A DNA stretch of 39,030 nucleotides from an uncultured Oscillospiraceae bacterium (lineage in GTDB: Bacteria > Bacillota > Clostridia > Oscillospirales > Ruminococcaceae), in assembly GCA_949285935.1 (NCBI GenBank), contig CASEAH010000001.1, positions 1 through 39,030 on the forward strand, written 5' to 3'. Numbering within the stretch: position 1 is the first letter of the stretch; each line of letters opens with the position of its first letter. Shown here piece after piece: positions 13,947 to 39,030 of this stretch. The position numbers and the translations under genes were made by a program. The notes beneath the pieces are model-generated. The model made no database searches and was not told the DNA's origin. It saw only the letters and a list, made by a program, of their open reading frames with translations.

Positions 13947-14993
13947 TTATTGTGTCAAGGGAAAATGACAGGCCACCCAGTGCCCCGGAGAGACTTCCAC
14001 CAGTTCCGGACGGATGGAAGAACACAGGGCAGCGGACCGGGGGCATCGGGGATGAAGAGGACATCCGGATGGAGGCGACAGGGGACTGGGAATCTCACCC
14101 GGCAGAAGGCAACTGTGTCGGCAGGAGGAAAATTCCATGCCGGCAGCTGCCAGCAGGCTTCGGGTATAGGGATGTGCAGGTCGGGCCAGCAGTGAAGAGC
14201 GGGAGGCAGATTCCACGATCCGCCCCAAATACATGACGGCAAACCGGTGGCAAATCTGGGACAATGCCCCCAGATCGTGAGAAATCATGAGATAACTGAT
14301 GCCCAGCTGCTGCTGCAGGTCCAGAAGGGTCCCCAAAACCTGTCCCTGTACCGAGGCATCCAGGGACGATACCGGTTCGTCACAGACGATAAACCGGGGC
14401 TGCACCGCCAAAGCCCGGGCAATCCCTACCCGCTGACGCTGTCCGCCGGAAAGCTGGTGGGGATAACGCTGCCTGCAGCTTTTGTCCAAGCCGGCCAATT
14501 CCAGCAGAGCAGCGATTCGGTCCTGCCGTTCCTGCCTGGATCCGGTTAACCGGTGGATATCCAAAGCTTCGCCCACAATTTCCCCGGCGGTCATTCGGGG
14601 ATCCAAAGACAGGGAGGAATCCTGAAAAATCATCTGCATCCGTCCGCGGTAAAAAAGCAGTTCCTTTCGGGACCAACGCCTTTTTTCAGTCCCGGGTCCA
14701 AAATAAGGGTGGCCTTCATAAAGCAGGCGCCCGTCGGTAGGTTCGATGAGACGGAGCAGGGCCAGTCCCGCAGTGGTTTTGCCGCACCCCGATTCTCCCG
14801 CCAGCCCCAGAGTTTCTCCGGGAGAGAGGGTAAAGGAGATTCCGTCTACGGCTTTCAGACACTGCCCATGGACCCGGCTTCCGGTAAAAAAATATTTTTT
14901 CAAATTTTGTACTTCCAAGAGGGGGGCCGTTCCAACCGCCTCCTTTTGTATAGGATATCTGCGTTCCGGCTGGGGAAAGAAGTTTTCTGCCAT
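13947..14993 (-). CDS. Peptide ABC transporter ATP-binding protein (OppF/DppF-like)
   Basis: This cytosolic ATPase is one of the pair energising peptide import. In 348 residues it has Walker [11 protein letters not shown]-loop [15 protein letters not shown], signature [15 protein letters not shown], Walker [15 protein letters not shown] and switch histidine in LMISHDLG. The C-terminal extension carries the oligo/dipeptide-type cysteine pattern [14 protein letters not shown], which in relatives binds an iron-sulfur cluster. The start at 14993 has a weak binding site, so it may depend on translation from the upstream ATPase gene, which ends 72 bases before. It is the last gene of the permease/ATPase operon. 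Confidence 0.93.
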
Positions 14994-15065
14994 GCCGGTG
15001 AATGGAGTTTATGGAGAAGAATAACAGATTTTGGGTTCCCCGGAGTCTTTGGACCAGTAAAGGCC

Positions 15066-16088
15066 TCAGATCTGAGAGCAAGAATGGTTGGGTACTGCGG
15101 TGCCGGTTCCTGCGCCCCGTTCCATGAGCCAACAGGCGGTCATGTGGCTTGGAGATTCAGATCCAAGAGGAGGCTGCCGGTACAGACAGATTTTCATGGC
15201 ATGGGGGCAGCGTTCTGCAAAGGCGCACCCTGCCGGGGGATGGAAAGGATCCGGAGGCTGCCCGGGAATAAAAGCCGGACGCTGCGGGGAATGGGCTGTC
15301 AGGGCGGGGATACAGCGGAGCAAAGCACGACTGTATGGATGCGTGGGACAGGATAAAATTTCTTTGGCAGGGCCGCATTCTGCCAGCCTTCCCCCGTACA
15401 GCACCGCGACGCGGTCACAAATCCGGGCAGTGATCCGCAAATCGTGGGTGATCAGGAGGATTCCCATTCCCAGTTCCCGGCGCAGCTGGGACAGCAGTTC
15501 CAGAATCTGGGCCTGGGTGGTAACGTCCAGGGCGCTGGTGGCTTCATCAGCAATGAGGAGCCGGGGACGGCCGGCCAGGGCCAGCGCGATCATGACCCGC
15601 TGGCAGAGACCACCGGAAAGCTGGTGGGGATAGAGCCTCATCTGCCGCTGGGGATCGGGGATGCCGACGGCTTTCAGCAGTTCTTGCCCCCTCTCCATGG
15701 CGTGAACCTTGTCGCATCCATCATGGCAGCGGATCACTTCGCACAGCTGGCTGCCCACTGTGTACAGAGGGTCCAGGGAAGCAAAAGGGTCCTGGAAAAT
15801 CATGCCAATCTCCCGCCCGCGTACCCGTGCCAGCTGCCTGGGGGAGAGGGCGGTCAACTCCTGCCCGTTCAGGAAAATCTTCCCCTGAACGATGCGGCCG
15901 GAAGGCGGGAGCATTCCCGGAACAGCACAAGCGGCAGTGGATTTGCCGGATCCCGATTCTCCCACCAGCCCCAGGATTTCTCCGGGGGCCATGGCGAGGC
16001 TCAGACCCCGCAGGGCCTGGACTTCTCCTTCCGGCCCGGAAAAGGAGACCCAAAGATCGCACAGCTCCAGCAGGAGGGAGTTTTCCAT
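15066..16088 (-). CDS. Peptide ABC transporter ATP-binding protein (OppD/DppD-like)
   Basis: This is the other ATPase of the peptide importer, 340 residues. Motifs are Walker A GESGSGKST, Q-loop GMIFQDPFASLDPLYTVG, signature LSGGLCQRVMIALAL, Walker B LLIADEATSALDVT and the switch histidine in LLITHDLR. The C-terminal CAFAERCPHAMKIC cysteine motif marks the OppD/DppD/NikD family. I used the ATG at 16088, preceded by AAAGGAGA on the minus strand; the longer ORF to 16130 overlaps the permease gene and lacks a site. The permease stop lies 13 bases upstream. Confidence 0.94.
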   Translation of the reverse strand: MENSLLLELCDLWVSFSGPEGEVQALRGLSLAMAPGEILGLVGESGSGKSTAACAVPGMLPPSGRIVQGKIFLNGQELTALSPRQLARVRGREIGMIFQDPFASLDPLYTVGSQLCEVIRCHDGCDKVHAMERGQELLKAVGIPDPQRQMRLYPHQLSGGLCQRVMIALALAGRPRLLIADEATSALDVTTQAQILELLSQLRRELGMGILLITHDLRITARICDRVAVLYGGRLAECGPAKEILSCPTHPYSRALLRCIPALTAHSPQRPAFIPGQPPDPFHPPAGCAFAERCPHAMKICLYRQPPLGSESPSHMTACWLMERGAGTGTAVPNHSCSQI

Positions 16089-16101
16089 AAACAATCTCCT
16101 T

Positions 16102-17166
16102 TCAGCGGTTGCTCCGGGGGTCCAGGGCATCCTGCAGGCCGTCGGCCAATAGATGAAAAGCCAGAATGATGACAGTAATCAGGAGGGAAGGGGCCAGGAG
16201 ACGGCTTGGATAGGAATAGATACCATCCAGAGCCTGGGCTGCCATGGAGCCCAGGCTGGGCAGGGGGGCAGCCACTCCCAGTCCCATAAAGCTGAGATAG
16301 CTTTCGGTGAAAATAGCGGCAGGGATCTGGAGAGCGGCGGTAACCGCCAGGGTACCGGCACAGTTGGGCAGCAGGTGCCGGAAAATGATCCGGCGGCGGC
16401 TGGCCCCCAGCGCCCGGGCCGCGGTAATGTAGGGGCGCTCCCGGAGAGAGAGGACCTGAGCCCGGATGATGCGGGCAGTGCCTACCCAATACAGCAGGCC
16501 GAAAACCAAAAATACACAAACCAGCCCTACCCCCAGGCTTTCGATCCACCGGAAAGCGGGAACATGGGCCGCAAGATAGGCGAGAGGATGTTTTAAAGTA
16601 ACCGACAGAAGGATAACGATGAGGATGTCGGGAATGGAATAGAGAAGATCCACCACCCGCATCATCACCAGATCCGCGGTGCCTCCCAGAAATCCGGCCA
16701 CCGCCCCATATACCGAGCCGATTACCAGCACCAGAATGCCGGCTGAGATTCCCACCGAAAGGGAGATCTGAGCGCCGGTCATCAGCCGGGCGGCCAGGTC
16801 ACGGCCCAAATTGTCGGTGCCCAGCAGATGAGGAAAAATCGTCTCTCCGGCAGCAAGGCGTTCCAGTTCCCGGGAAGAGTATTCCATGGGGCGGAGATTC
16901 TCACTTCCCCGAAGCTGCTCGTCATAGGTGTAGGGATAAAAAGGCGGGAGCAAAAAGGCTGCCCCCAGAATGAGGAGAATGAGAATCAGACCGGCCATGG
17001 CCCCCCGGTTACAGAACAGCCGGGCCACTCCGGTCTTCCTGCCGTTTTGCCCTGTGCCGGAGGAAGAAAGTGAGGGGTCCCACGAAGTATGGGCTGGGCA
17101 GGAATTTTCATCCCGGAGAATGGGGCGAAAGTCCTCCTCCGTGTAGTCGGGAACAACCGGAGCCAT
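16102..17166 (-). CDS. Peptide ABC transporter permease (OppC/DppC-like)
   Basis: This 354-residue membrane subunit has the OppC architecture: a cytoplasmic N-terminal tail, a first helix (about residues 58-78), a long external loop with GTDNLGRDLAARLM, then five helices with the EAA coupling motif ARALGASRRRIIFRHLLPN. The ATG at 17166 follows AAGGAGGT on the minus strand; the ORF extends eight codons further but without a site. It starts 25 bases after the OppB-like stop. It should form the pore with that protein. Confidence 0.94.
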   Translation of the reverse strand: MAPVVPDYTEEDFRPILRDENSCPAHTSWDPSLSSSGTGQNGRKTGVARLFCNRGAMAGLILILLILGAAFLLPPFYPYTYDEQLRGSENLRPMEYSSRELERLAAGETIFPHLLGTDNLGRDLAARLMTGAQISLSVGISAGILVLVIGSVYGAVAGFLGGTADLVMMRVVDLLYSIPDILIVILLSVTLKHPLAYLAAHVPAFRWIESLGVGLVCVFLVFGLLYWVGTARIIRAQVLSLRERPYITAARALGASRRRIIFRHLLPNCAGTLAVTAALQIPAAIFTESYLSFMGLGVAAPLPSLGSMAAQALDGIYSYPSRLLAPSLLITVIILAFHLLADGLQDALDPRSNR

Positions 17167-17191
17167 CAACACACCTCCTTGAACAGGCAAC

Positions 17192-18109
17192 CTATTTTAA
17201 ACGGATCCTGGGATCCACCAGCCGTGACAGCAGGTCGGAAAGCAGATTCATCAGGACCATCAAAGAAGCCAGGAAAATCGTGGTCCCCATGATCAGGGGA
17301 TAATCCCGGCTGGAAATAGCGCGGATCAGTTCGCTGCCCAGCCCGGGAATGGTAAGGATCTTTTCTACCACGAAGCTGCCGGTCAGGGTATAGGCCAACA
17401 GGGGACCAAGATATGCAATGGCCGGCAGCAGGGCATTGCGCAGAGCATGGCGAAAAAGGATCCGGGCAGGACTCAGGCCGTTGGCGGCAGCCGTGCGCAA
17501 ATATTCCTGCTCCAGCGTTTCCAGCAGAGAAGCACGGATGAGCCGGCACAGATAGGAGGCCGGATATACTGCCAGAGAGAGGACTGGAAGGATATAATGA
17601 GCCGGGGAGGAAAGCCCCATGGTGGGCAGAAGCCTCAGTTTTACCCCAAAGACCACCATCAGGACCGTGGTCAGCACAAACCCGGGAGCCGAGATCCCCG
17701 CTGCCGCAGCCGCCGAGATCAACCGATCCGGCCAGCGATCCCGAAACCGGGCGGACACTGTTCCCAGCAGAATTCCGGCACAGACGGCCGCAGATACTGC
17801 TGCGCCGCCGATGCGGGCGGAGGCGGGGAACCCCTGGGCAATAATCTCCGATACCATACGGCCCCGCTGTTTCAAAGAAGGGCCCAGGTCCCCCCGCAGC
17901 AGCCCAGCCAGATAGTTGCGGTACTGTACGGCAACAGGCTGGTCAAGACCATATCGGGCCTCCAATGCTGCAAGGGTGGAGGGGGAAACGGATTTTTCCG
18001 ATTCAAAAGGGCCGCCGGGAATGAGAAACATCAGAAAAAATGTCAGCGTGATGACCACAAAGAGGGTCAAAATTGCTGCCGCTATACGTTTGAGGACATA
18101 AAACCACAT
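17192..18109 (-). CDS. Peptide ABC transporter permease (OppB/DppB-like)
   Basis: This is the first gene of the peptide transporter operon. The 305-residue protein starts with the typical OppB helix (MWFYVLKRIAAAILTLFVV), followed by PGGPF, an external loop with YGLDQPVAVQYRNYL, five further helices, the EAA motif AANGLSPARILFRHALRN and a C-terminal DPRIRL tail, all family hallmarks. The ATG at 18109 has GGAGG six bases upstream on the minus strand. The consensus-like promoter at 18326-18355 precedes it by about 210 bases. Confidence 0.95.
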   Translation of the reverse strand: MWFYVLKRIAAAILTLFVVITLTFFLMFLIPGGPFESEKSVSPSTLAALEARYGLDQPVAVQYRNYLAGLLRGDLGPSLKQRGRMVSEIIAQGFPASARIGGAAVSAAVCAGILLGTVSARFRDRWPDRLISAAAAAGISAPGFVLTTVLMVVFGVKLRLLPTMGLSSPAHYILPVLSLAVYPASYLCRLIRASLLETLEQEYLRTAAANGLSPARILFRHALRNALLPAIAYLGPLLAYTLTGSFVVEKILTIPGLGSELIRAISSRDYPLIMGTTIFLASLMVLMNLLSDLLSRLVDPRIRLK

Positions 18110-31958: not shown

Positions 31959-32458
31959 GGAAGGAATGCATCATCAAGGGAATTCCCCATCAGAAAGCAA
32001 AAAATTGGCTTATTCTATAAGAAATCATGTGTGCGTCAAGAACGCTGGCAAAGCGGGAACGATCAAGATAAAAGCTACAGGATACGGAAAACCGGACAAG
32101 CATCCCCTGTAAAAGATGTAAGCATTTGATTTGAGAAAGACTGAAAAAAGCTTGAAGTGAAGCCTTCCATGAAGATGTGTAGGATATGGCAGGTGCAGCC
32201 TGACTTGCCGGCAAATTTCGGACATATGAGATGGCTGAGAGCAGGCTGCAGGTCTGTACAGATATGAAGAGCGGATGGCAGTTATTTTGAAAGGATAAAA
32301 TCTTTCGGGAAAGAATGGCCAAAATGGATATTCGGGTATGGATGTAAGGTTTTGGATAAAGCAAAAGCCCGGAGCATAAATTGGATCCAGCCGCTGGCTG
32401 GTGGGAACAGGGAACACTTTGGGCCCCGTGGATGCAGGCACTGATCTGGAAAAAAACA
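31959..32458. other. Noncoding gap between the LysR promoter and the island edge
   Basis: I find no gene, RNA or clear repeat here. Short ORFs on both strands carry no recognisable domain. Confidence 0.45.
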
Positions 32459-32482
32459 AAAGCCAGAGCACATTCTGGCTTT
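32459..32482 (-). terminator. Second terminator downstream of the tRNA-Leu fragment
   Basis: AAAGCCAGA (32459-32467) pairs with TCTGGCTTT (32474-32482). On the minus strand it is followed by TGTTTTTTTCC, a good intrinsic terminator. Confidence 0.75.
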
Positions 32483-32550
32483 AGCCCTGATCGCTGCGTA
32501 TAGTGAACACTTTAGTTTGATTTGGACGGGGGCTGCTGTTTTAGACAAAA

Positions 32551-32582
32551 AGAGCCTGGAGCATGACTTGGCTCCAGGCTCT
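32551..32582 (-). terminator. Terminator of the tRNA-Leu fragment
   Basis: A perfect 12-bp stem (32551-32562 with 32571-32582) is followed on the minus strand by TTTTTGTCT. It starts eight bases after the tRNA CCA, as expected for the original tRNA gene terminator. Confidence 0.82.
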
Positions 32583-32589
32583 GGCCTGT

Positions 32590-32640
32590 TGGTGCGGAAG
32601 ATGGGACTTGAACCCACACACCGAGGTACTGGCTCCTAAA
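32590..32640 (-). pseudogene. 3' half of a tRNA-Leu(UAG) gene, probable attachment site
   Basis: Read on the minus strand this gives an anticodon loop TTTAGGA with anticodon TAG, the 3' anticodon stem GCCAG, a long class-II variable arm, a T arm GTGGG-TTCAAGT-CCCAT, acceptor strand CTTCCGC, discriminator A and CCA. No 5' half precedes it: the sequence upstream of TTTAGGAGCC is unrelated. A cut exactly at the anticodon loop is typical of integration into a tRNA gene. Confidence 0.8.
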
Positions 32641-32984
32641 GGTGATGTCACCTTGGTGGAAGATCCGGAAAAAAGCATTTTCCGGTTCCCGCCGCCTTCC
32701 AGCGGCAAGTGGTCGGATTGGGGATACCGTTCAAACGGAATCATGCGATGGAAAGGCGGGTTCCGTTTTTGGCAGGAAGAATGTATGTTCTACTGAGTCG
32801 GCTTTTGTCCATAGGTATTGTACGGCTTCCATCTACTCTAAAATCCAGCGAGTACTTGCGCCGCTCATGTCCTGATGTACCATTGGCAGCTTTTTTCCCT
32901 TCCTATGCTTTCTGTGTCCTTCCATATAAAAAACGTGGTCCAGCAGATATCAGTATACATCTTCCTGAAAGGTGATCGGGGTAG

Positions 32985-33372
32985 CAATGATTGTTCCCCG
33001 TGCGACTGATGCCGCTCTCACCACAGAGATAGGCCCCACAGTAGTCACGAAAAAGTTCGGTTGTCAACGGATAATCGTCCTCAGCTTTGTGGCGAGTTAG
33101 GGCATTCTTGTTCTTTGCCAATTTCTCTTGTACCCGGTCGAAGAGGCTGGGGGACAATAGTAGGAATTCCTTTGGAAATACAATATCTTAGTATAGATAC
33201 TCGCCTATGTAGCGGCGATTTTTCAAGAGTGTCTCCATACTGCCATACTGCATCAGTTCTCCATGAGTATTTTTGATCTCGTATTGGTTAAGCCAATCAC
33301 AGATGTCCTTCATTGTTGCCCTTTCATTGTATCTCTGGCATACCCTTAGAACAAACGGTGTGGTCCGTGTTT
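32985..33372 (-). pseudogene. Degenerate serine recombinase (C-terminal part)
   Basis: The minus strand reads PFVLRVCQRYNERATMKDIC then DWLN...TLLKNRRYIGEYLY, an in-frame TAA at 33190-33188, then DIVFP, and after compensating frame changes GIPTIVPQ and SLFDRVQEKLAKNKNALTRH, KAEDDYPLTTELFRDYCGAY, LCGESGISRTGN. This matches the recombinase domain and zinc-ribbon of large serine recombinases of Clostridia mobile elements. The N-terminal catalytic resolvase domain is missing, and one stop and at least two frameshifts show that the gene is dead. It probably once moved the island. Sequence from 32641 to 32985 has no identifiable gene. Confidence 0.82.
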
Positions 33373-33508
33373 ATAAATCAGCTACTCGGTTTTGATTGTT
33401 ATACTCATATTGATTTTCCTAGATACTTATGTTACGCTAAACACAACATATACTGATAAAGTTTACTTTGGAGACGCTGTGAGTGGGAATTCAACAAGGA
33501 GTAACGCT

Positions 33509-34720
33509 ATGATTGTCAATCAACCTTACGATGAGCAACTCGGGGTTCAACTGATTCGTGCCATTGAAAGTGGCGAATATGCCCAACTTACAATAATGGT
33601 TGCATACGCGAAATTAAGTGGCGTATATAGAATTTCACCATATGTTGAAGAATTTCGCAAGAACGGTGGTACCGTTCGTTGCGTTGTAGGTGTCGATCAG
33701 CACAACACTACCTACGATGCATTATTACATTTGTTAACACTGTCCAATGATGTTAGTATTTTCCATGCCGAAAGTATCTCGCAGACCTTCCACGTCAAAT
33801 GCTATTGGTTAACTGGTGATAAAACTTGTTGGTACGCAATTGGTTCCAACAATTTGACTGCGGGTGGCCTATTTAGCAATTATGAAATGAGTTCAATAGT
33901 TTCTTTAACGGGGGATGATGCCAGCAAAGCTAATGACGCCCTCGAGGAGATATACGTAAAATACGCAGATCCTACAGTATCTGTTTGTAGCCATAAACTT
34001 GATAATGCATTTCTTAATGAACTTTTGTCCGAAGGATATGTGATACAGGAAATTCAACAAAGAAAGTCTTTAGCTGAAATAGCACGGCAAACACGTGTAG
34101 CGGCAGGTAAAAAGAAGAAACTATTTGGCAACGAAATATTTCCAGCACCAGCCCTTCCAGAACAATACCAGGCCACTAAATCCAAAGCTGGGGCAAGGAA
34201 GAGCGGGACAGAGGCCAAGATCAAACCGAAAAGCGTTATTCAAGTGCCTCCTATTGCCGCGAGCTCTGATGACAATGCTTACTTGATTCGACTGATTCCG
34301 GGTGCAGGGAATAGATCTAAGCAGGTACATTTCACAGTTGCTCTTCTCAAGGAATATTTCTGCCTTTCCCCCGGTGATACTATTCTTGTTCAGGAAATGC
34401 TTCCTACTGGTGCAGTAGGCCAGATTGAACACCGCCAAGTTGTTTTTAGCGAGCGAAATAGGAATGTGAAAATTGAGCTTAGTGGTGCATCCATGCTAGA
34501 CGATAACTATCCGACAAATCTAGAGACACGACCAGTTCTGATTCTCAAGCGAGTTAATGCAAACCTGTTTGTGTACATGATTCTGTTGGATGGGGACGAT
34601 GGCTACACGCCGATCAACAACCGGCTGAAGTCGCTTCGCAAAGTAGGAAATGCTCTTCAGTATGAAGTCATTGACGAAAGCACCATGTTTTCTTTGTGGG
34701 GAGATTGTCCTATCACGTAA
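33509..34720 (+). CDS. PLD-fold restriction endonuclease (BfiI / NgoFVII-like)
   Basis: This is a probable site-specific DNA nuclease of 403 residues. The N-terminal half is a phospholipase-D fold: the metal-independent active-site motif is seen as H95-V-K97 followed by G112-S113-N114-N115, with LTAGG behind. The C-terminal half (about 240-403) follows a Lys/Ala-rich linker and resembles the B3-like DNA-binding domain of BfiI: IRLIPGAGNRSKQVHFTVAL, then SLWGDCPIT at the end. I used the ATG at 33509, with AAGGAG seven bases before; the ORF extends 39 codons upstream through a hydrophobic stretch without a site. It converges on the two methyltransferase genes that would protect host DNA. Base composition is AT-rich compared with the genes to its left. 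Confidence 0.85.
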   Translation: MIVNQPYDEQLGVQLIRAIESGEYAQLTIMVAYAKLSGVYRISPYVEEFRKNGGTVRCVVGVDQHNTTYDALLHLLTLSNDVSIFHAESISQTFHVKCYWLTGDKTCWYAIGSNNLTAGGLFSNYEMSSIVSLTGDDASKANDALEEIYVKYADPTVSVCSHKLDNAFLNELLSEGYVIQEIQQRKSLAEIARQTRVAAGKKKKLFGNEIFPAPALPEQYQATKSKAGARKSGTEAKIKPKSVIQVPPIAASSDDNAYLIRLIPGAGNRSKQVHFTVALLKEYFCLSPGDTILVQEMLPTGAVGQIEHRQVVFSERNRNVKIELSGASMLDDNYPTNLETRPVLILKRVNANLFVYMILLDGDDGYTPINNRLKSLRKVGNALQYEVIDESTMFSLWGDCPIT

Positions 34721-34721
34721 C

Positions 34722-34761
34722 AAAAGAGAGCTGTCGGCAATCATGCTGACAGCTCTCTTTT
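34722..34761. terminator. Bidirectional terminator between nuclease and methyltransferase
   Basis: An 18-bp stem with one G-T wobble (34722-34739 with 34744-34761) has an ATCA loop. It begins AAAA and ends TTTT, serving both convergent genes; its right edge touches the methyltransferase stop codon. Confidence 0.9.
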
Positions 34762-35630
34762 CATATGGGCTCATTTCTAAACAGTTCTTTATAAGAAGGA
34801 GCCTTTGAGTTTTTCTTCTTCGGATCCGGCTTTTGGACGATAATGATATACTCGTTCACGTTCTTAAAAAGGAAATTTGGAGGATATGGATAGCTTCCAA
34901 AGATAGGGCGTTGAGAGTTAGCTGAACCCCATCTTCCACCTGTACCGTCCTTGTTCCAAATAATCTGGTTGATAAGGGCGAAACCACATCCTTGCAGGAC
35001 CTTAGTCATATCGCTTGCGAGAGGAATTGTAAGTAATCCGTGTTCTCTGGTATTCTGGTTGACGTTAGCTGTAACAACACACATTTTTCGACCGGGCATC
35101 AAAACGCGGTAGCATTCCTCAAACACTTTTTTAAGATCCGCCAGAAAATCATCGTAGTATTGATACCCACCAATGTTTCCTTCGTACTCTCCGTAATCGG
35201 CTTTATTCCAATATGGAGGTGAGGTAACAACAATTCCTACGCTTTCATCTTGAATCTGCGTCATATTGCAGGAACTTGAGTTTACAATTCTATACTGACC
35301 TTCAGCGAGATTATTATCCACAGCTACTTCGTGTAAACGGCTTAATGCCTCTCTGTAATACACGGAATTTGTTTCAAAACCCAAATAGGATCGACCTGTC
35401 TGCAAAGCCACTTTTCCGGTAGTAGCCATACCAGAAAACGGGTCCAAAACAACTTCTCCCACAAATGAGAACATCCGGATTAGCCGGTAGGGGATTTCGG
35501 GTGGATATACAGCGGGATGTATATTATCACTGACGTTAGCGATACTCCAAACTGTTTTTGTCCATTCCTTCCATTCTTCACTTGTTAGTTTTGATGCTTC
35601 TTTGATTTCTGCACTAATTGCAGTTGCCAT
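34761..35630 (-). CDS. DNA amino-methyltransferase with TSPPYW motif, permuted order
   Basis: This SAM-dependent modification enzyme, acting on adenine N6 or cytosine N4, protects sites from the linked nuclease. In 289 residues the SAM-binding block comes first (HPAVYPPEIPYRLI, then VLDPFSGMATTG at 61-72 and GFETNSVYY), followed by the catalytic block VVTSPPYWNKADYG (TSPPYW at 136-141). In the common beta class, where these particular wordings are normally seen, the catalytic block precedes the SAM block, so this enzyme looks circularly permuted. The TSPPYW form is common in N4-cytosine enzymes. The ATG at 35630 follows GAGGT, six bases after the stop of the larger methyltransferase; the two are cotranscribed. 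Confidence 0.87.
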   Translation of the reverse strand: MATAISAEIKEASKLTSEEWKEWTKTVWSIANVSDNIHPAVYPPEIPYRLIRMFSFVGEVVLDPFSGMATTGKVALQTGRSYLGFETNSVYYREALSRLHEVAVDNNLAEGQYRIVNSSSCNMTQIQDESVGIVVTSPPYWNKADYGEYEGNIGGYQYYDDFLADLKKVFEECYRVLMPGRKMCVVTANVNQNTREHGLLTIPLASDMTKVLQGCGFALINQIIWNKDGTGGRWGSANSQRPIFGSYPYPPNFLFKNVNEYIIIVQKPDPKKKNSKAPSYKELFRNEPI

Positions 35631-35635
35631 AGTTT

Positions 35636-37486
35636 TTACCTCTTTTCGTTGTCTCGGTTACAATAAACTTGATTGTGGTACCAGTCCTCAATATAGGAAG
35701 CAAAGGTAGTTGGAAGATTTAAGGCAGCAATAATGATCTCCTCAACGCGCCGAATAATTTCCATTGCGTCCCAGTGGGAATAATTAACAATTTTCTTTCC
35801 AGCATTGAATGAAACGGTGGGATGATCCTTCACGCGCTGCGAGTAAGCATTCCCAAGCTTACATAGCTCCTCTTGCTGCAATGCAGTAAAACAGTTCCAA
35901 CTGACCCGGTAGTCCGACAAAAACGATGAGTTTAAATGAAAACCATCCCCTATGGCGACCCAGTACCAATAGGCAATACGATTACTTAGCAAAGCAATAC
36001 AGAAGTCGCGGCGAATCTCGTCGGGGAAATAATATATCTTAGATGTATTTGACAAATAGGGGTTTCCTTTTTCGTCAGTTGAAGGGGGAAAATGATCATA
36101 TGCGCAAATCCAGTTGTAAGCAGTGCCGTTTACTACCAGAGTGTGCTCACTTGGATATGGCACACACAGCTCTTTCAAACTGCTATGTCCTCGGTTGATT
36201 ACCTCAAAAGCCTGCTTTTCAAGTGGGCATGATATTTTGGGGACATATTTTGAAATCTTCAAATTAGAGATGTCACACAGTTCCTGCTTTTTAAACAACT
36301 GATCACGATGTTCAGAAGTCCAGCGCTGGAGTCTGGTAGTAGTAAGGGTTGTAGCAGCTTGGTGTGTGTTATGAAACAATATGGTGTTTCGTGTCTTTAC
36401 CTGGTCGCCGAATAGAGAATCCGGGCTTCGATCATAGTTAAAAAAAATCCATTCTCCACTATTAGCACTCATGCGTTCTCTTAGCTCTACATATTTTCTT
36501 CCCTGAGAGTAGCAGACGGAAAGGGGGAGTACTAATGCGGAACAGCTTGTCCCAGATGAATGTGTAATCAGGTTCTCTACAAAAGGAATAAATAGATTGG
36601 AATCCTTCCCTTCAGAAACATACGGGGGATTTCCGATAATACAATTATATGTTTGAGGAAGCTCCTTGTGGGAGGAATAAACTATTTGTAATTGTGTAGC
36701 ATCTCCAACGAATAAGGAGTGCCTAAGTGCATACCCTACTTCAGAAAACCGGCTAAAATCATCAGAGTATTCATCTATGTAGTATTGGAGAAACACTGCC
36801 TTACAGCAGTCAATTGCCGCCTGACTGATGTCAACACCCCATATACATTTTGTGAGCAGTTCTACTGATGTATCAAAACAATGATTGGGATTGAGTTTTT
36901 TTTCCAGATTGAGAAAACTCTGGAGTAGAAAAACACCGGATCCACAACTAAAATCGATAATTGTTGGAAAAGGAATATGAGGGGAAACAGATGAAATGCA
37001 CCGTGAAACCATAAAGTCTACAACATCAATAGGGGTGTAGTAAACGCCTTGATTTTTCTTTTTTATATTTGCTCTTCGAGCTCCCCCGGATACTTTAACT
37101 TTAAAGTATTCATTTGTGTTGTATTCCAACGCTTCTAGAGCATAGTTGAGTAGATCTCGCCAATCTGGGTATTGCTTTAAATCCATTAGTGTCTTGATTG
37201 TTCCACCAAGCTCAATCTGCCGAACACTCTCAGTACATAAATCAAAACAGCAATCAACAGAGAGATTCATCAAGTAAAGAGCATCGGATAGGTGAGTAGA
37301 ATTTAACTGATTTGACTGCTCTGTTCGCAAAAGCAATAAGCAAACAAGGACAATTTGACGTGTTTCATCGGAAGAAAGGCTTACACTGCTATTATCGGAA
37401 ACAAGTGTAAGTCTAGCCTTCTGAATAATGTCAGATAGCATGGTTGTTCTGGTGTTAGTGCCAGTTATATTAGCTGCTTTACTCAT
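35636..37486 (-). CDS. N6-adenine DNA methyltransferase, Eco57I-like gamma class
   Basis: This is the larger modification enzyme of the system, 616 residues. An N-terminal helical region (1-140) precedes motif X (GVYYTP, 147-152), motif I (DFSCGSGVFLL, 178-188), the acidic VDIS segment near 218 and the catalytic NPPY (286-289, in CIIGNPPYVSEGK), the order of gamma-class N6-adenine enzymes such as Eco57I and TaqI. The remaining 300 residues resemble a target-recognition region. Its start overlaps the XRE controller stop by four bases (ATGA). Having two methyltransferases suits a type IIS enzyme with an asymmetric site that needs each strand modified separately. I see no nuclease motif within this protein. 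Confidence 0.88.
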   Translation of the reverse strand: MSKAANITGTNTRTTMLSDIIQKARLTLVSDNSSVSLSSDETRQIVLVCLLLLRTEQSNQLNSTHLSDALYLMNLSVDCCFDLCTESVRQIELGGTIKTLMDLKQYPDWRDLLNYALEALEYNTNEYFKVKVSGGARRANIKKKNQGVYYTPIDVVDFMVSRCISSVSPHIPFPTIIDFSCGSGVFLLQSFLNLEKKLNPNHCFDTSVELLTKCIWGVDISQAAIDCCKAVFLQYYIDEYSDDFSRFSEVGYALRHSLFVGDATQLQIVYSSHKELPQTYNCIIGNPPYVSEGKDSNLFIPFVENLITHSSGTSCSALVLPLSVCYSQGRKYVELRERMSANSGEWIFFNYDRSPDSLFGDQVKTRNTILFHNTHQAATTLTTTRLQRWTSEHRDQLFKKQELCDISNLKISKYVPKISCPLEKQAFEVINRGHSSLKELCVPYPSEHTLVVNGTAYNWICAYDHFPPSTDEKGNPYLSNTSKIYYFPDEIRRDFCIALLSNRIAYWYWVAIGDGFHLNSSFLSDYRVSWNCFTALQQEELCKLGNAYSQRVKDHPTVSFNAGKKIVNYSHWDAMEIIRRVEEIIIAALNLPTTFASYIEDWYHNQVYCNRDNEKR

Positions 37487-37881
37487 TGATTACCACCACT
37501 ATTCAAAGAAATGCTTGCACTTGAAAGTTTTATAAATAGATCTTCCCAGCAAGAGTCATTTACTTCGTTCTGTACGCCATAGTCGATAAGTGCCAGCAAC
37601 GATTTGTGTGTTAACAGATAGGCCATCTGTACACTTGATAATCGGTTGCGGTCTGCGGCGGCTAATCTTCTAAAATCCCTTGCTTCACTATTATCTAGGT
37701 TCAATGTAATAATAAGCGTCTCGATGTCTGAACTATTGGGAGGAGCATTATTCTTTCCATGCTCAATGTTACTAACGTATTGCCCGGTCTTGCCAATCGC
37801 TGTTGCCACTTCATCTTGGGTAAGGCATGCGGCTTTTCGTTTTGCTTTTAGAAATTTTCCAAATTCAGATGGTTCAAACAA
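37483..37881 (-). CDS. XRE-family HTH protein, probable R-M controller
   Basis: This small DNA-binding protein of 132 residues has an XRE helix-turn-helix at about residues 8-62 (LTQDEVATAIGKTGQYVSNI, then EHGKNNAPP) and a longer C-terminal tail than classic restriction C proteins. I accept the TTG start at 37881, because AAAGGAGG lies seven bases upstream on the minus strand and no ATG fits. Its gene comes first in the operon with both methyltransferases, overlapping the next by four bases. The promoter carries a 10-bp inverted repeat across the transcription start, so it likely represses its own operon, delaying or balancing modification and restriction. That behaviour is inferred from C-protein systems. 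Confidence 0.86.
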   Translation of the reverse strand: MFEPSEFGKFLKAKRKAACLTQDEVATAIGKTGQYVSNIEHGKNNAPPNSSDIETLIITLNLDNSEARDFRRLAAADRNRLSSVQMAYLLTHKSLLALIDYGVQNEVNDSCWEDLFIKLSSASISLNSGGNQ

Positions 37882-37898
37882 TATAGCTCCTCCTTTCT

Positions 37899-37952
37899 AA
37901 TAAATAAACAAATTTATTTATTTATTATATCTGAAATAGCATCTGTTGTCAA
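37899..37952 (-). promoter_or_regulatory. Consensus promoter and palindromic operator of the R-M operon
   Basis: On the minus strand TTGACA (37952-37947) and TATAAT (37929-37924) are separated by exactly 17 bp, a full match to the sigma-A consensus. AATAAATAAA (37899-37908) and TTTATTTATT (37913-37922) form a perfect inverted repeat with a four-base spacer just after the -10 box, covering the expected start point near 37917. Binding of the HTH protein there would shut off the promoter. Confidence 0.88.
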
Positions 37953-38100
37953 GAACGGCTGTGCTAAGATCATCCAGTTCAGACCTCTTGTACATATTGT
38001 TTGCAATCGCGTTTTCGACTGCAATGGTATTAATTATGATCATACTGCCATCAGAGCATTTAACGTTTCGCAGGTGTATCCAGGCTGTACTTACAGGAAA
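37918..38100 (-). pseudogene. Unidentified coding remnant upstream of the controller
   Basis: A 60-codon minus-strand frame reads like protein (WIHLRNVKCSDGSM, then IIINTIAVENAIANNMYKRS and ELDDLSTAVLDNRC) and ends inside the R-M promoter. It is preceded by a stop, has no good start, and its family is unknown to me. Another short frame upstream (about 38122-38190) reads AKRLKLKPRGPKKHKDL then stops. Both look like leftovers of genes carried by the element. Confidence is low. Confidence 0.3.
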
Positions 38101-38220
38101 TCAATTTCTTTATTTGATGCCCTACAAGTCTTTATGTTTCTTCGGTCCTCGTGGTTTTAACTTAAGTCGTTTAGCTACTCCGTTTCAGAAATGGATATCC
38201 TTAAATTTGTCGAAGAAAAC

Positions 38221-38269
38221 AAATAATCCGAATCCATCTCCCACATGGAAGATTTGCTTCGGATTATTT
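38221..38269 (-). terminator. Terminator after the second tRNA-like fragment
   Basis: AAATAATCCGAA (38221-38232) pairs perfectly with TTCGGATTATTT (38258-38269). On the minus strand GTTTTC continues after the stem. It directly follows the tRNA-like CCA, mirroring the arrangement at 32551-32592. Confidence 0.72.
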
Positions 38270-38274
38270 AGGCT

Positions 38275-38334
38275 TGGTGCGGGCGGAGGGGCTCAAACCT
38301 TTACCAGAAGACTGGGCTCCTAAAGATTGGGAGA
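38275..38334 (-). pseudogene. Second tRNA-Leu(UAG)-like 3' fragment, probable attachment site
   Basis: On the minus strand it begins CTTTAGGAGCC, the same anticodon-loop core as the fragment at 32590-32640, then has a class-II-length variable region, a degenerate T arm GGTTTGAGCCCC, acceptor CGCCCGC, A and CCA. Outside the core the sequence differs from the first copy, and the T stem has mismatches, so it derives from another leucine tRNA gene or an element-borne mimic. No 5' half is present. Confidence 0.62.
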
Positions 38335-38644
38335 AATCCTTTTCGATTTCCACCGCCTGCAGGTGTTGGGTTTTGGCGGACAGTTTTTGCTTCCTGCATT
38401 CCGGTTTTCGATTCGGGAATCTTTTTGGTGCATAGATGATAGGGGTGTTTTCCTGTGAGCCCGTCTCTATACCCATCTATATAAAGGATCCTCAGGCAAT
38501 TTACAAACCGTCTTTCAAAGCTACTTTTATCATACCACGCCACTCCTACAAGGATAGAAACTGAAGAACCCCGATTCATTTTTCTTGCTGTTCGTGAAAA
38601 CCCGGGCGGAATCAAAACTAACCGATGCTCCCCGCCCTGTTTTT
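38335..38644. other. Gap with a promoter-like site and no supported gene
   Basis: On the minus strand TTGTAA (38506-38501) and TATATA (38483-38478) are 17 bp apart, a plausible promoter pointing towards the tRNA-like fragment. Two short minus-strand ORFs (ending at 38264 and 38301) overlap here, lack good ribosome binding sites and cross the tRNA-like sequence. I do not call them. Confidence 0.4.
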
Positions 38645-39030
38645 TTACAGCTGCCGCAGGCTCCGCTGCAGCGCCGCCAGATCCATTTCTCCGGCCAGCG
38701 CCTTCTCTTTCAGCTGCTGCGCCTGGGCAACCTTGCAATTCCATTTCTCCACCGACAGTGTGCCGCTGCGCTTGCGGGCCTTGAGGCGGTTGTAGGTCCG
38801 GCTGTATTCCACCTGAATGGGGGAACTGCTCTTCTTTTTTCGTTCTGTCCTGTGGGCACCCACCTGCCTGCAGGTCTTTTTTGTTTCCCCAGGTGCCACC
38901 CGCTCGCAATAAACGGTGCTGTACCCGCCCTGGGCCAAAAACCATTTACCGCAGTTCTGGCAGCGGCGGGGCAGGTTGCCTGCCGCCATCCCCTTGCATA
39001 AGTCAGTATAAAGGAAGCTGGCCAGATGGG
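38645..39030 (-). CDS. DUF6076 domain-containing protein, C-terminal part (cut by window edge)
   Basis: The open frame continues to the window edge (HLASFLYTDLCKG precedes the first internal methionine), so only the C-terminal part of about 128 residues is seen. It carries a zinc-ribbon-like RRCQNCGKWFLAQGGYSTVY then CERVAPGETKKTC, followed by QVEYSRTYNRLKARKRSGT and a helical end. I associate this pattern with DUF6076 proteins of Clostridia, often found in mobile or accessory regions; the function is unknown. Composition is GC-rich, unlike the R-M genes, so it may belong to the host or to a second element. Confidence 0.75.
   Translation of the reverse strand, partial: HLASFLYTDLCKGMAAGNLPRRCQNCGKWFLAQGGYSTVYCERVAPGETKKTCRQVGAHRTERKKKSSSPIQVEYSRTYNRLKARKRSGTLSVEKWNCKVAQAQQLKEKALAGEMDLAALQRSLRQL

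Follow-up and report, generated by a model that had tools for sequence, protein, structure and literature searches.

The window analyzed here, a 39,030-nucleotide stretch of DNA from an uncultured Oscillospiraceae bacterium, is the whole of contig C1 (CASEAH010000001.1), which stops at 39030; the source genome amounts to 2.44 Mb in 110 contigs and is 89% complete. Close to the right end of the window lie two minus-strand fragments of tRNA-Leu, hereafter fragments 1 and 2, and between them a dead serine recombinase and a four-gene restriction-modification (R-M) system (Table 1). An earlier note on this DNA had pointed out both fragments, with their common 11-mer, CCA ends and terminators, and these observations stand: the 11-mer, CTTTAGGAGCC, occurs exactly at 32631-32641 and 38315-38325, both on the minus strand and with no other copy in the assembled genome, and the fragments run on to CCA (ends at 32590 and 38275), each followed by a hairpin with a T run. 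The 11-mer pair alone is weak evidence, given that 7 of 100 window shuffles yield three matches at one mismatch. The AT-rich character of the intervening stretch is equally borne out (GC content of 40.9% in 33360-38270 vs 53.8% in 1-32589), as are the recombinase, a remnant with a stop inside, and the R-M system, in which Pfam identifies two methylases, a helix-turn-helix (HTH) protein and, below its cut-off, a PLD-type nuclease. We consider it highly probable that the window carries the right end of an integrative, and probably mobilizable, element that splits a tRNA-Leu(UAG) gene in the anticodon loop, brings a replacement tRNA and carries the R-M genes as cargo.

A split tRNA-Leu(UAG) gene and its probable replacement

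The native 5' half missing from the window is found on another contig of the same genome, C92, where, on the minus strand, GCGGAAGTGGCGGAATGGCAGACGCGCTGGTCTTAGG is followed by element DNA, TGCTGTCACCTCAG. This 5' half pairs with fragment 1 at 7/7 positions of the acceptor stem and 5/5 of the anticodon stem, and ARAGORN calls a tRNA-Leu(UAG) (tag) once the two flanks are joined; a single flank gives none. Together with its terminator, fragment 1 is 93% identical over 70 bases, starting at TTAGG, to the intact tRNA-Leu(UAG) of G006, a genome of the same genus. The gene that precedes the native 5' half on C92 encodes methionine gamma-lyase, and a comparison with relatives lacking the island, as the earlier note had proposed, revealed the empty sites: the methionine gamma-lyase gene is followed by an intact tRNA-Leu(UAG) in G001, G005 and G007, and by the junction in G000 and G004.

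C92 also holds a complete tRNA-Leu(UAG) (C92:7280-7363), about 150 bp beyond the junction and different in sequence from the split gene. The ten Rfam tRNAs of at least 80 bases in the source genome comprise five tRNA-Leu (UAG, CAG, UAA, CAA and GAG, one each), four tRNA-Ser and one tRNA-Tyr. When 12 genomes were searched with the 5'-half pattern of tRNA-Leu(UAG), ten proved to be occupied, the locus holding a single complete copy beside one or more dead halves, and two to be empty, with a single copy. No other tRNA-Leu(UAG) was found in the ten occupied genomes by the exact pattern search, a call of copies per genome that, most assemblies being drafts, an odd copy could escape. Judged from these sequences, the native gene appears to have been cut within the anticodon loop and to have been replaced instead of rebuilt, and the borne tRNA presumably works, with the host depending on it.

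The earlier note had envisaged a rebuilt full tRNA beyond 39030. In such a classical tRNA island, tandem tyrosine-integrase elements would each rebuild the tRNA with their own 3' half, which accounts for 3' halves that run in the same direction to CCA and a terminator, and integration into anticodon loops is a known habit of tyrosine integrases. However, the native 5' half on C92 continues into element DNA and not into a 3' half, the intact tRNA-Leu(UAG) being a separate complete gene inside the element, and TTAGG alone is common to the two element ends. Furthermore, among 20 scanned proteins of the delimited elements G437 and G431 (described below), a subset of their open reading frames, we found serine recombinases and no tyrosine recombinase family. 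A classical island with a rebuilt tRNA is, we believe, extremely improbable, and a split and replaced gene remains our reading.

Neither ARAGORN nor Rfam calls a tRNA at either fragment. At gathering scores across the window, Rfam identifies the tRNA-Asn at 66-138 alone, and at E values up to 5 within 32400-39030, it returns four weak matches, none of them at the fragments, so that another structured RNA there was rejected. Chance repeats were rejected as well, given the matches of fragment 1 to an intact tRNA and of fragment 2 to element-borne tRNAs, and so was a whole decayed tRNA at fragment 1, an idea prompted by folds, the sequence upstream of which is no closer to tRNA 5' halves than shuffles are (229/300 as good). 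Fragment 1 is best understood as the displaced native 3' half at the element end. The terminator hairpin of 32546-32582 is in addition a dispersed repeat in several genomes of the same genus.

Junctions and borne tRNAs in other genomes

With up to one mismatch, the junction is present in 11 of 396 family genomes, one of these being a chance match. The exact 21-base junction was recovered in 34 stretches in genome_contigs, labeled Angelakisella, Pseudoflavonifractor, Flavonifractor, Intestinimonas, Oscillibacter, Gemmiger, Anaerotruncus, Faecousia, Caccousia, Oscillospiraceae, Clostridiales, Clostridia and, in one case, Lachnospiraceae. A tRNA-Leu 5'-half pattern precedes 53 of the 54 unique junctions, with the acceptor end of the 5' half looking decayed at two (L146 and L148). 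Downstream, on the same strand, a complete tRNA-Leu(UAG) begins 62 to 1879 bp from the junction; it is present at 18 of the 19 junctions with at least 2 kb of downstream sequence and at 24 of the 34 with less, and at the single miss among the 19, L145, a second junction comes next, and this one has a complete tRNA. Random 2.5-kb windows contained tRNA-Leu(UAG) in 13 of 162 cases, a weak control, drawn as these windows were from the same loci as the tRNAs.

In a set of 39 records (selected also for the 5'-half pattern, and leaving out the repeat loci L104, L107, L108, L109, L111 and L115 and the chance junction L113), 26 have one junction, 12 have two and one has four, that is, 13 of the 39 stack two to four halves; at L147, one complete tRNA is preceded by four dead 5' halves, which belong to three acceptor types. 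The 31 borne tRNAs represent 25 sequences, of which four are common to two to four records. The tRNA borne at L135, in Anaerotruncus, is the same as the complete tRNA of G006:C25 at 82/82 bases, and the tRNA borne on C92 of the source genome has exactly the same 3' half as an attR site in the genome of L135. It appears that borne tRNAs are exchanged between genomes.

These comparisons bear on the idea that the hosts had two tandem tRNA-Leu(UAG) genes and the element broke one of them, in which case the intact copy would not be cargo. In 5 of 31 records, the borne and the split gene have the same 5' half, as tandem duplication would also have it, but the two halves differ in the remaining 26, and four borne sequences recur in different records, as stated above. 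Moreover, the two empty genomes have one copy by pattern, and at four loci the intact tRNA lies between attL and attR. A pair of host genes seems to us very unlikely, and a tRNA carried by the element preferable.

Attachment sites and recombination

The attR site, at up to 2 mismatches, was detected in 12 of the 24 genomes with the junction, and its arm is alike in the 16 attR sites compared, those of the window and of G006 among them. The earlier note had proposed to look for the 11-mer as a direct repeat at the element ends; the 11-mer is not the attachment core, and the junction sequence common to both ends is TTAGG, which forms a short direct repeat there. In the 13 genomes with both ends, the source genome included, all 15 3' halves pair with a 5' half of their own genome at 7/7 acceptor and at least 4/5 anticodon stem positions, whereas across genomes 55 of 180 pairings reach at least 6/7 and at least 4/5, respectively; both within and across genomes, the score is the highest obtained among all halves of a genome at either of two start positions, and the attR-like locus L163, which has no tRNA 3' half behind it, is left out of the counts.

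From the arms of 49 attL and 16 attR sites, we infer a 44-bp attP, TTCACTgAGGTGACATCACCT-TT-AGGTGCTGTCACCTCAGTGAA, the arms of which are symmetric around TT at 20 of 21 positions, the TT being U33-U34 of the tRNA. An attachment site with a central dinucleotide is typical of serine recombinases. A DDE or Tn7-like transposon that targets tRNA-Leu, with TTAGG as a 5-bp target duplication and with terminal inverted repeats, would explain both the TTAGG at the two ends and the long terminal inverted repeats; yet, the inverted arms are symmetric about TT, so that TTAGG as the duplication implies a three-base offset, and the 20 scanned proteins include no transposase family, DDE or other, a serine recombinase pair being present instead. 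We give hardly any credence to such a transposon and retain serine recombination at TT. The exact attP and attL patterns yielded 0 stretches in viral_contigs, and a virus carrier was rejected on these grounds.

Delimited elements

In four genomes, attL and attR lie in line on one contig with a complete tRNA between them, delimiting elements of 31.8 kb (G437, Flavonifractor sp. An10), 18.8 kb (G431), about 10.5 kb (G424) and about 5 kb (G440). The elements of G437 and G431 have a common order, namely, attL, tRNA, cargo, LsrA, LsrB, relaxase, AAA_25, DUF6076, cargo and attR, with LsrA to AAA_25 on the opposite strand. The domains of large serine recombinases (Resolvase, Recombinase and Zn_ribbon) are present in LsrA of G437 and in both LsrA and LsrB of G431, LsrB of G437 being assigned by similarity, and it is these two proteins that we take to be the likely integrase. 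A close LsrB (96%) is present in one of 396 genomes, G335, which has the junction, and three genomes with a 47% LsrB have no junction, both weak observations, with at most three candidates per genome scored. The relaxase, PF03432, occurs in G437 and G431; none was seen in the contigs of the source genome, in which this part of the element is unassembled. Side by side in the G437 cargo (8104-11290 of L166) stand a C5 methylase, a NotI-like restriction enzyme and a Shedu protein, with an FRG protein also in the cargo, and the G431 cargo includes a DUF4011 helicase-like protein; defense genes, therefore, recur as cargo.

Read in the direction of the tRNA, C92 consists of attL and the tRNA, followed by two recombinase pieces, two large genes for which Pfam gives no match and the C-terminus of LsrA (C92:2-487, opposite strand, at the contig edge), the only part of this LsrA in the source genome. 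The window, in the same direction, begins inside the DUF6076 gene, which occupies the corresponding place in the G431 and G437 elements, and continues with fragment 2, followed by the R-M genes, the dead recombinase and, lastly, attR. Taken together, C92 and the window reproduce the order of the family minus LsrB, relaxase and AAA_25, and are probably the opposite ends of a single element that the assembly has divided. In G006, a DUF6076 gene (91% DNA identity over 385 bases) and attR with its 3' half are 17.8 kb apart on one contig.

Judged from translations, this span from DUF6076 to attR in G006 (L054, G006:C170, 1-18625) includes FmdE-like, FecCD-type and peptide ABC transporter genes, together with a nitrogenase-like cluster in which there is also a radical SAM protein, possibly metabolic cargo of the same element family. 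Positions 14000-18100 of the window resemble, by tblastx, ABC-transporter genes in this G006 element and are probably paralogous host genes. On G002:C5, at about 786617-788114 (in L099), a 150-bp unit is repeated about 10 times in tandem, the copies being roughly 93-99% alike in pairwise comparison.

The origin of fragment 2

The 3' part of fragment 2, its terminator and the next bases align to the borne tRNAs of G437 (score 113) and G002 (105), with 0 of 1000 shuffles as good (best shuffles 39 and 42, respectively). Because these alignments rise far above shuffles, fragment 2 would be the end of an element-borne tRNA and not of a host gene. The tandem integration at a leucine tRNA that the earlier note had proposed is upheld in part: the island is integrative, fragment 1 is a displaced 3' half and there are signs of more than one integration, but fragment 2 does not go back to the host tRNA.

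How fragment 2 came to lie where it does is less certain. In what we consider its likeliest, albeit uncertain, history, the borne tRNA of a first element was split by a second one, and the left-hand trace of this event was later lost; that loss is assumed because C92 keeps a single 5' half. Alternatively, for fragment 2 only, a whole borne tRNA might have decayed in place, or a piece might have been rearranged, no half ever having been split off. A 91-nt stretch there folds into a tRNA-like outline, and the upstream arm is not recognizable as attR (1422 of 2000 shuffles as good), both of which fit decay in place. Nevertheless, the fold is an ordinary one (z of -1.31, with 20 of 200 shuffles equally stable), and the sequence upstream is unlike tRNA 5' halves (127 of 300 shuffles as good) and resembles instead the inner sequence that lies ahead of fragment 1 (1 of 2000 shuffles). 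Decay or rearrangement strikes us as unlikely, though it deserves some weight, and a borne tRNA split by a second insertion is the history that we prefer.

Genes at the right end of the window

A single HxK and a single GSxN motif are present in the PLD-type nuclease, which resembles DrmC/DpdK weakly and matches no sequence in PDB up to E = 1. DNA methyltransferases beside a PLD nuclease are a feature of R-M systems with a PLD-type nuclease, and the window has this arrangement. The nuclease is rare, with 2 of 297 family genomes, the source genome included, having it; in the second, G233, homologues of both methylases stand beside it. The R-M genes of the window appear to be right-end cargo of an ordinary kind, with restriction as their predicted function. 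At the other end of the window, a tRNA lies at exactly 66-138, as one also does on contigs C2 and C103 of the same genome, an identical placement on three contigs that suggests assembly breaks at repeated tRNA or rRNA regions.

Table 1. Features at the right end of the window, with the evidence for each
Feature	Position	Strand	Evidence
Terminator hairpin behind the native tRNA-Leu 3' half	32546..32582	-	sequence; identity to G006
Fragment 1, 3' half of the native tRNA-Leu(UAG), TTAGG to CCA	32590..32639	-	pairing with the C92 5' half; ARAGORN
attR, right element end (AAGGTGACATCACCT) joined to TTAGG	32635..32660	-	arm common to 16 attR sites
Serine recombinase remnant, internal stop	32981..33364	-	64% identity over 129 aa to the intact 508-aa recombinase of the G437 element
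PLD-type nuclease, likely restriction enzyme, cargo	33509..34720	+	PLDc_2 E 5.7e-5, below cut-off
DNA methyltransferase, N6_N4_Mtase family, cargo	34761..35630	-	Pfam E 5.5e-39; PDB 2zie E 5.5e-38
DNA methyltransferase, Eco57I/N6_Mtase type, cargo	35636..37486	-	Pfam E 5e-7; PDB 8cxz, 7lni E 2.5e-8
HTH protein, possible R-M controller	37483..37881	-	HTH_31 and HTH_3
Terminator of the putative element-borne tRNA	38217..38269	-	aligns with borne-tRNA terminators of G437 and G002
Fragment 2, probable decayed 3' part of an element-borne tRNA-Leu	38275..38323	-	alignment to borne tRNAs
DUF6076 gene, 5' end off the contig, element backbone gene	38645..39028	-	PF19553 E 2.9e-42

Discussion

In the mechanism that we propose, the element would use serine recombination to enter tRNA-Leu(UAG) within its anticodon loop, the TT that corresponds to U33-U34 being the most likely point of entry, and would split the native gene without rebuilding it. 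The complete tRNA-Leu(UAG) just inside the left end of the element would then take over. This borne tRNA could itself serve as the next attB, such that elements nest.

Several observations weigh against this scheme. A circular attP was not seen, viral_contigs having given 0. The middle of the element is unassembled in the source genome, where LsrB was not found at E 1e-40, and C92 holds one 5' half, while fragment 2 suggests two insertions. The LysR-type host gene adjoining fragment 1 was not found beside the empty sites that were fetched. G002 has the junction and a borne tRNA but no attR at 2 mismatches and no close LsrB; in G440, attR belongs to the third of four halves, and a 3' half for the fourth, expected in between, could not be located on the contig. 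The 5 of 31 records in which the borne 5' half equals the split one belong here, too. Finally, LsrA is present in 7 of the 18 attL-side stretches with at least 3 kb downstream, with LsrB too in 4 (a tally of attL-side stretches that leaves out C92, the window, G006 and other attR-side stretches, the LsrA of C92 coming from a separate comparison), and LsrA was not found between attL and attR in G424 and G440. Many sites look like remnants that keep the tRNA.

Among known systems, SCC elements have a large serine recombinase pair, ccrA/ccrB, and insert at rlmH, which they keep working. The present elements differ from these in their target, with 53 of the 54 junctions following tRNA-Leu 5' halves. 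Integrative mobilizable elements (IMEs) with serine recombinases disrupt dispensable genes, and most tyrosine-recombinase IMEs use the ends of genes, tRNA genes included, without disruption, according to the relevant passages of PMC5704250. The Tn4451-type IMEs likewise combine a serine recombinase, a relaxase, short direct repeats and an insertion that disrupts a gene, but, as portrayed in those passages, they have single serine recombinases and dispensable targets, whereas the present elements have two recombinases in tandem, target the only detected tRNA-Leu(UAG) and carry its replacement. Streptococcal integrative and conjugative elements (ICEs) with serine-integrase triplets are similar in having several serine integrases, direct repeats of 2-8 bp and a disrupted target gene; their targets, however, are mutT, traG and hsdM, and the pertinent part of PMC4701971 does not mention a replacement gene. 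IME_Rho_tet resides in gut Clostridia, including Oscillospiraceae, and has a serine recombinase, a relaxase and 21-bp terminal inverted repeats, but 45% of its 256 matched sites are in MAFF2-type small ORFs and the word 'tRNA' is absent from the main text of PMC12904643. Tycheposons, as outlined in sections of PMC10872708 and PMC11389934, are cargo islands that likewise have a complete tRNA at a border; they differ by their tyrosine recombinase (PMC10872708), a family missing from the 20 scanned proteins of G437 and G431. In the open-access literature searched, we came across no description of an element with a serine recombinase that replaces the tRNA it targets.

On balance, we favor the possibility that this serine-recombinase family lives by target swap, that is, an element would destroy the only tRNA-Leu(UAG) of the cell and install a substitute that ties the host to it and offers the next site. 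Under this scenario, successive elements would displace tRNAs, the stacked dead halves would record the insertions, and tRNA genes would pass between species as attachment sites. CUA codons are read by tRNA-Leu(UAG), and it appears that the family disrupts the only gene for this tRNA and is tolerated by supplying a copy of its own. If so, the element would become hard to lose, with exact excision alone being harmless, and its spread would provide a route for the horizontal replacement of tRNA genes. The recombinase pair, with a defined 44-bp attP and an attB in the anticodon loop, would then be directly testable, and the dead tRNA halves at the ends of islands could serve as a chronology of insertions.

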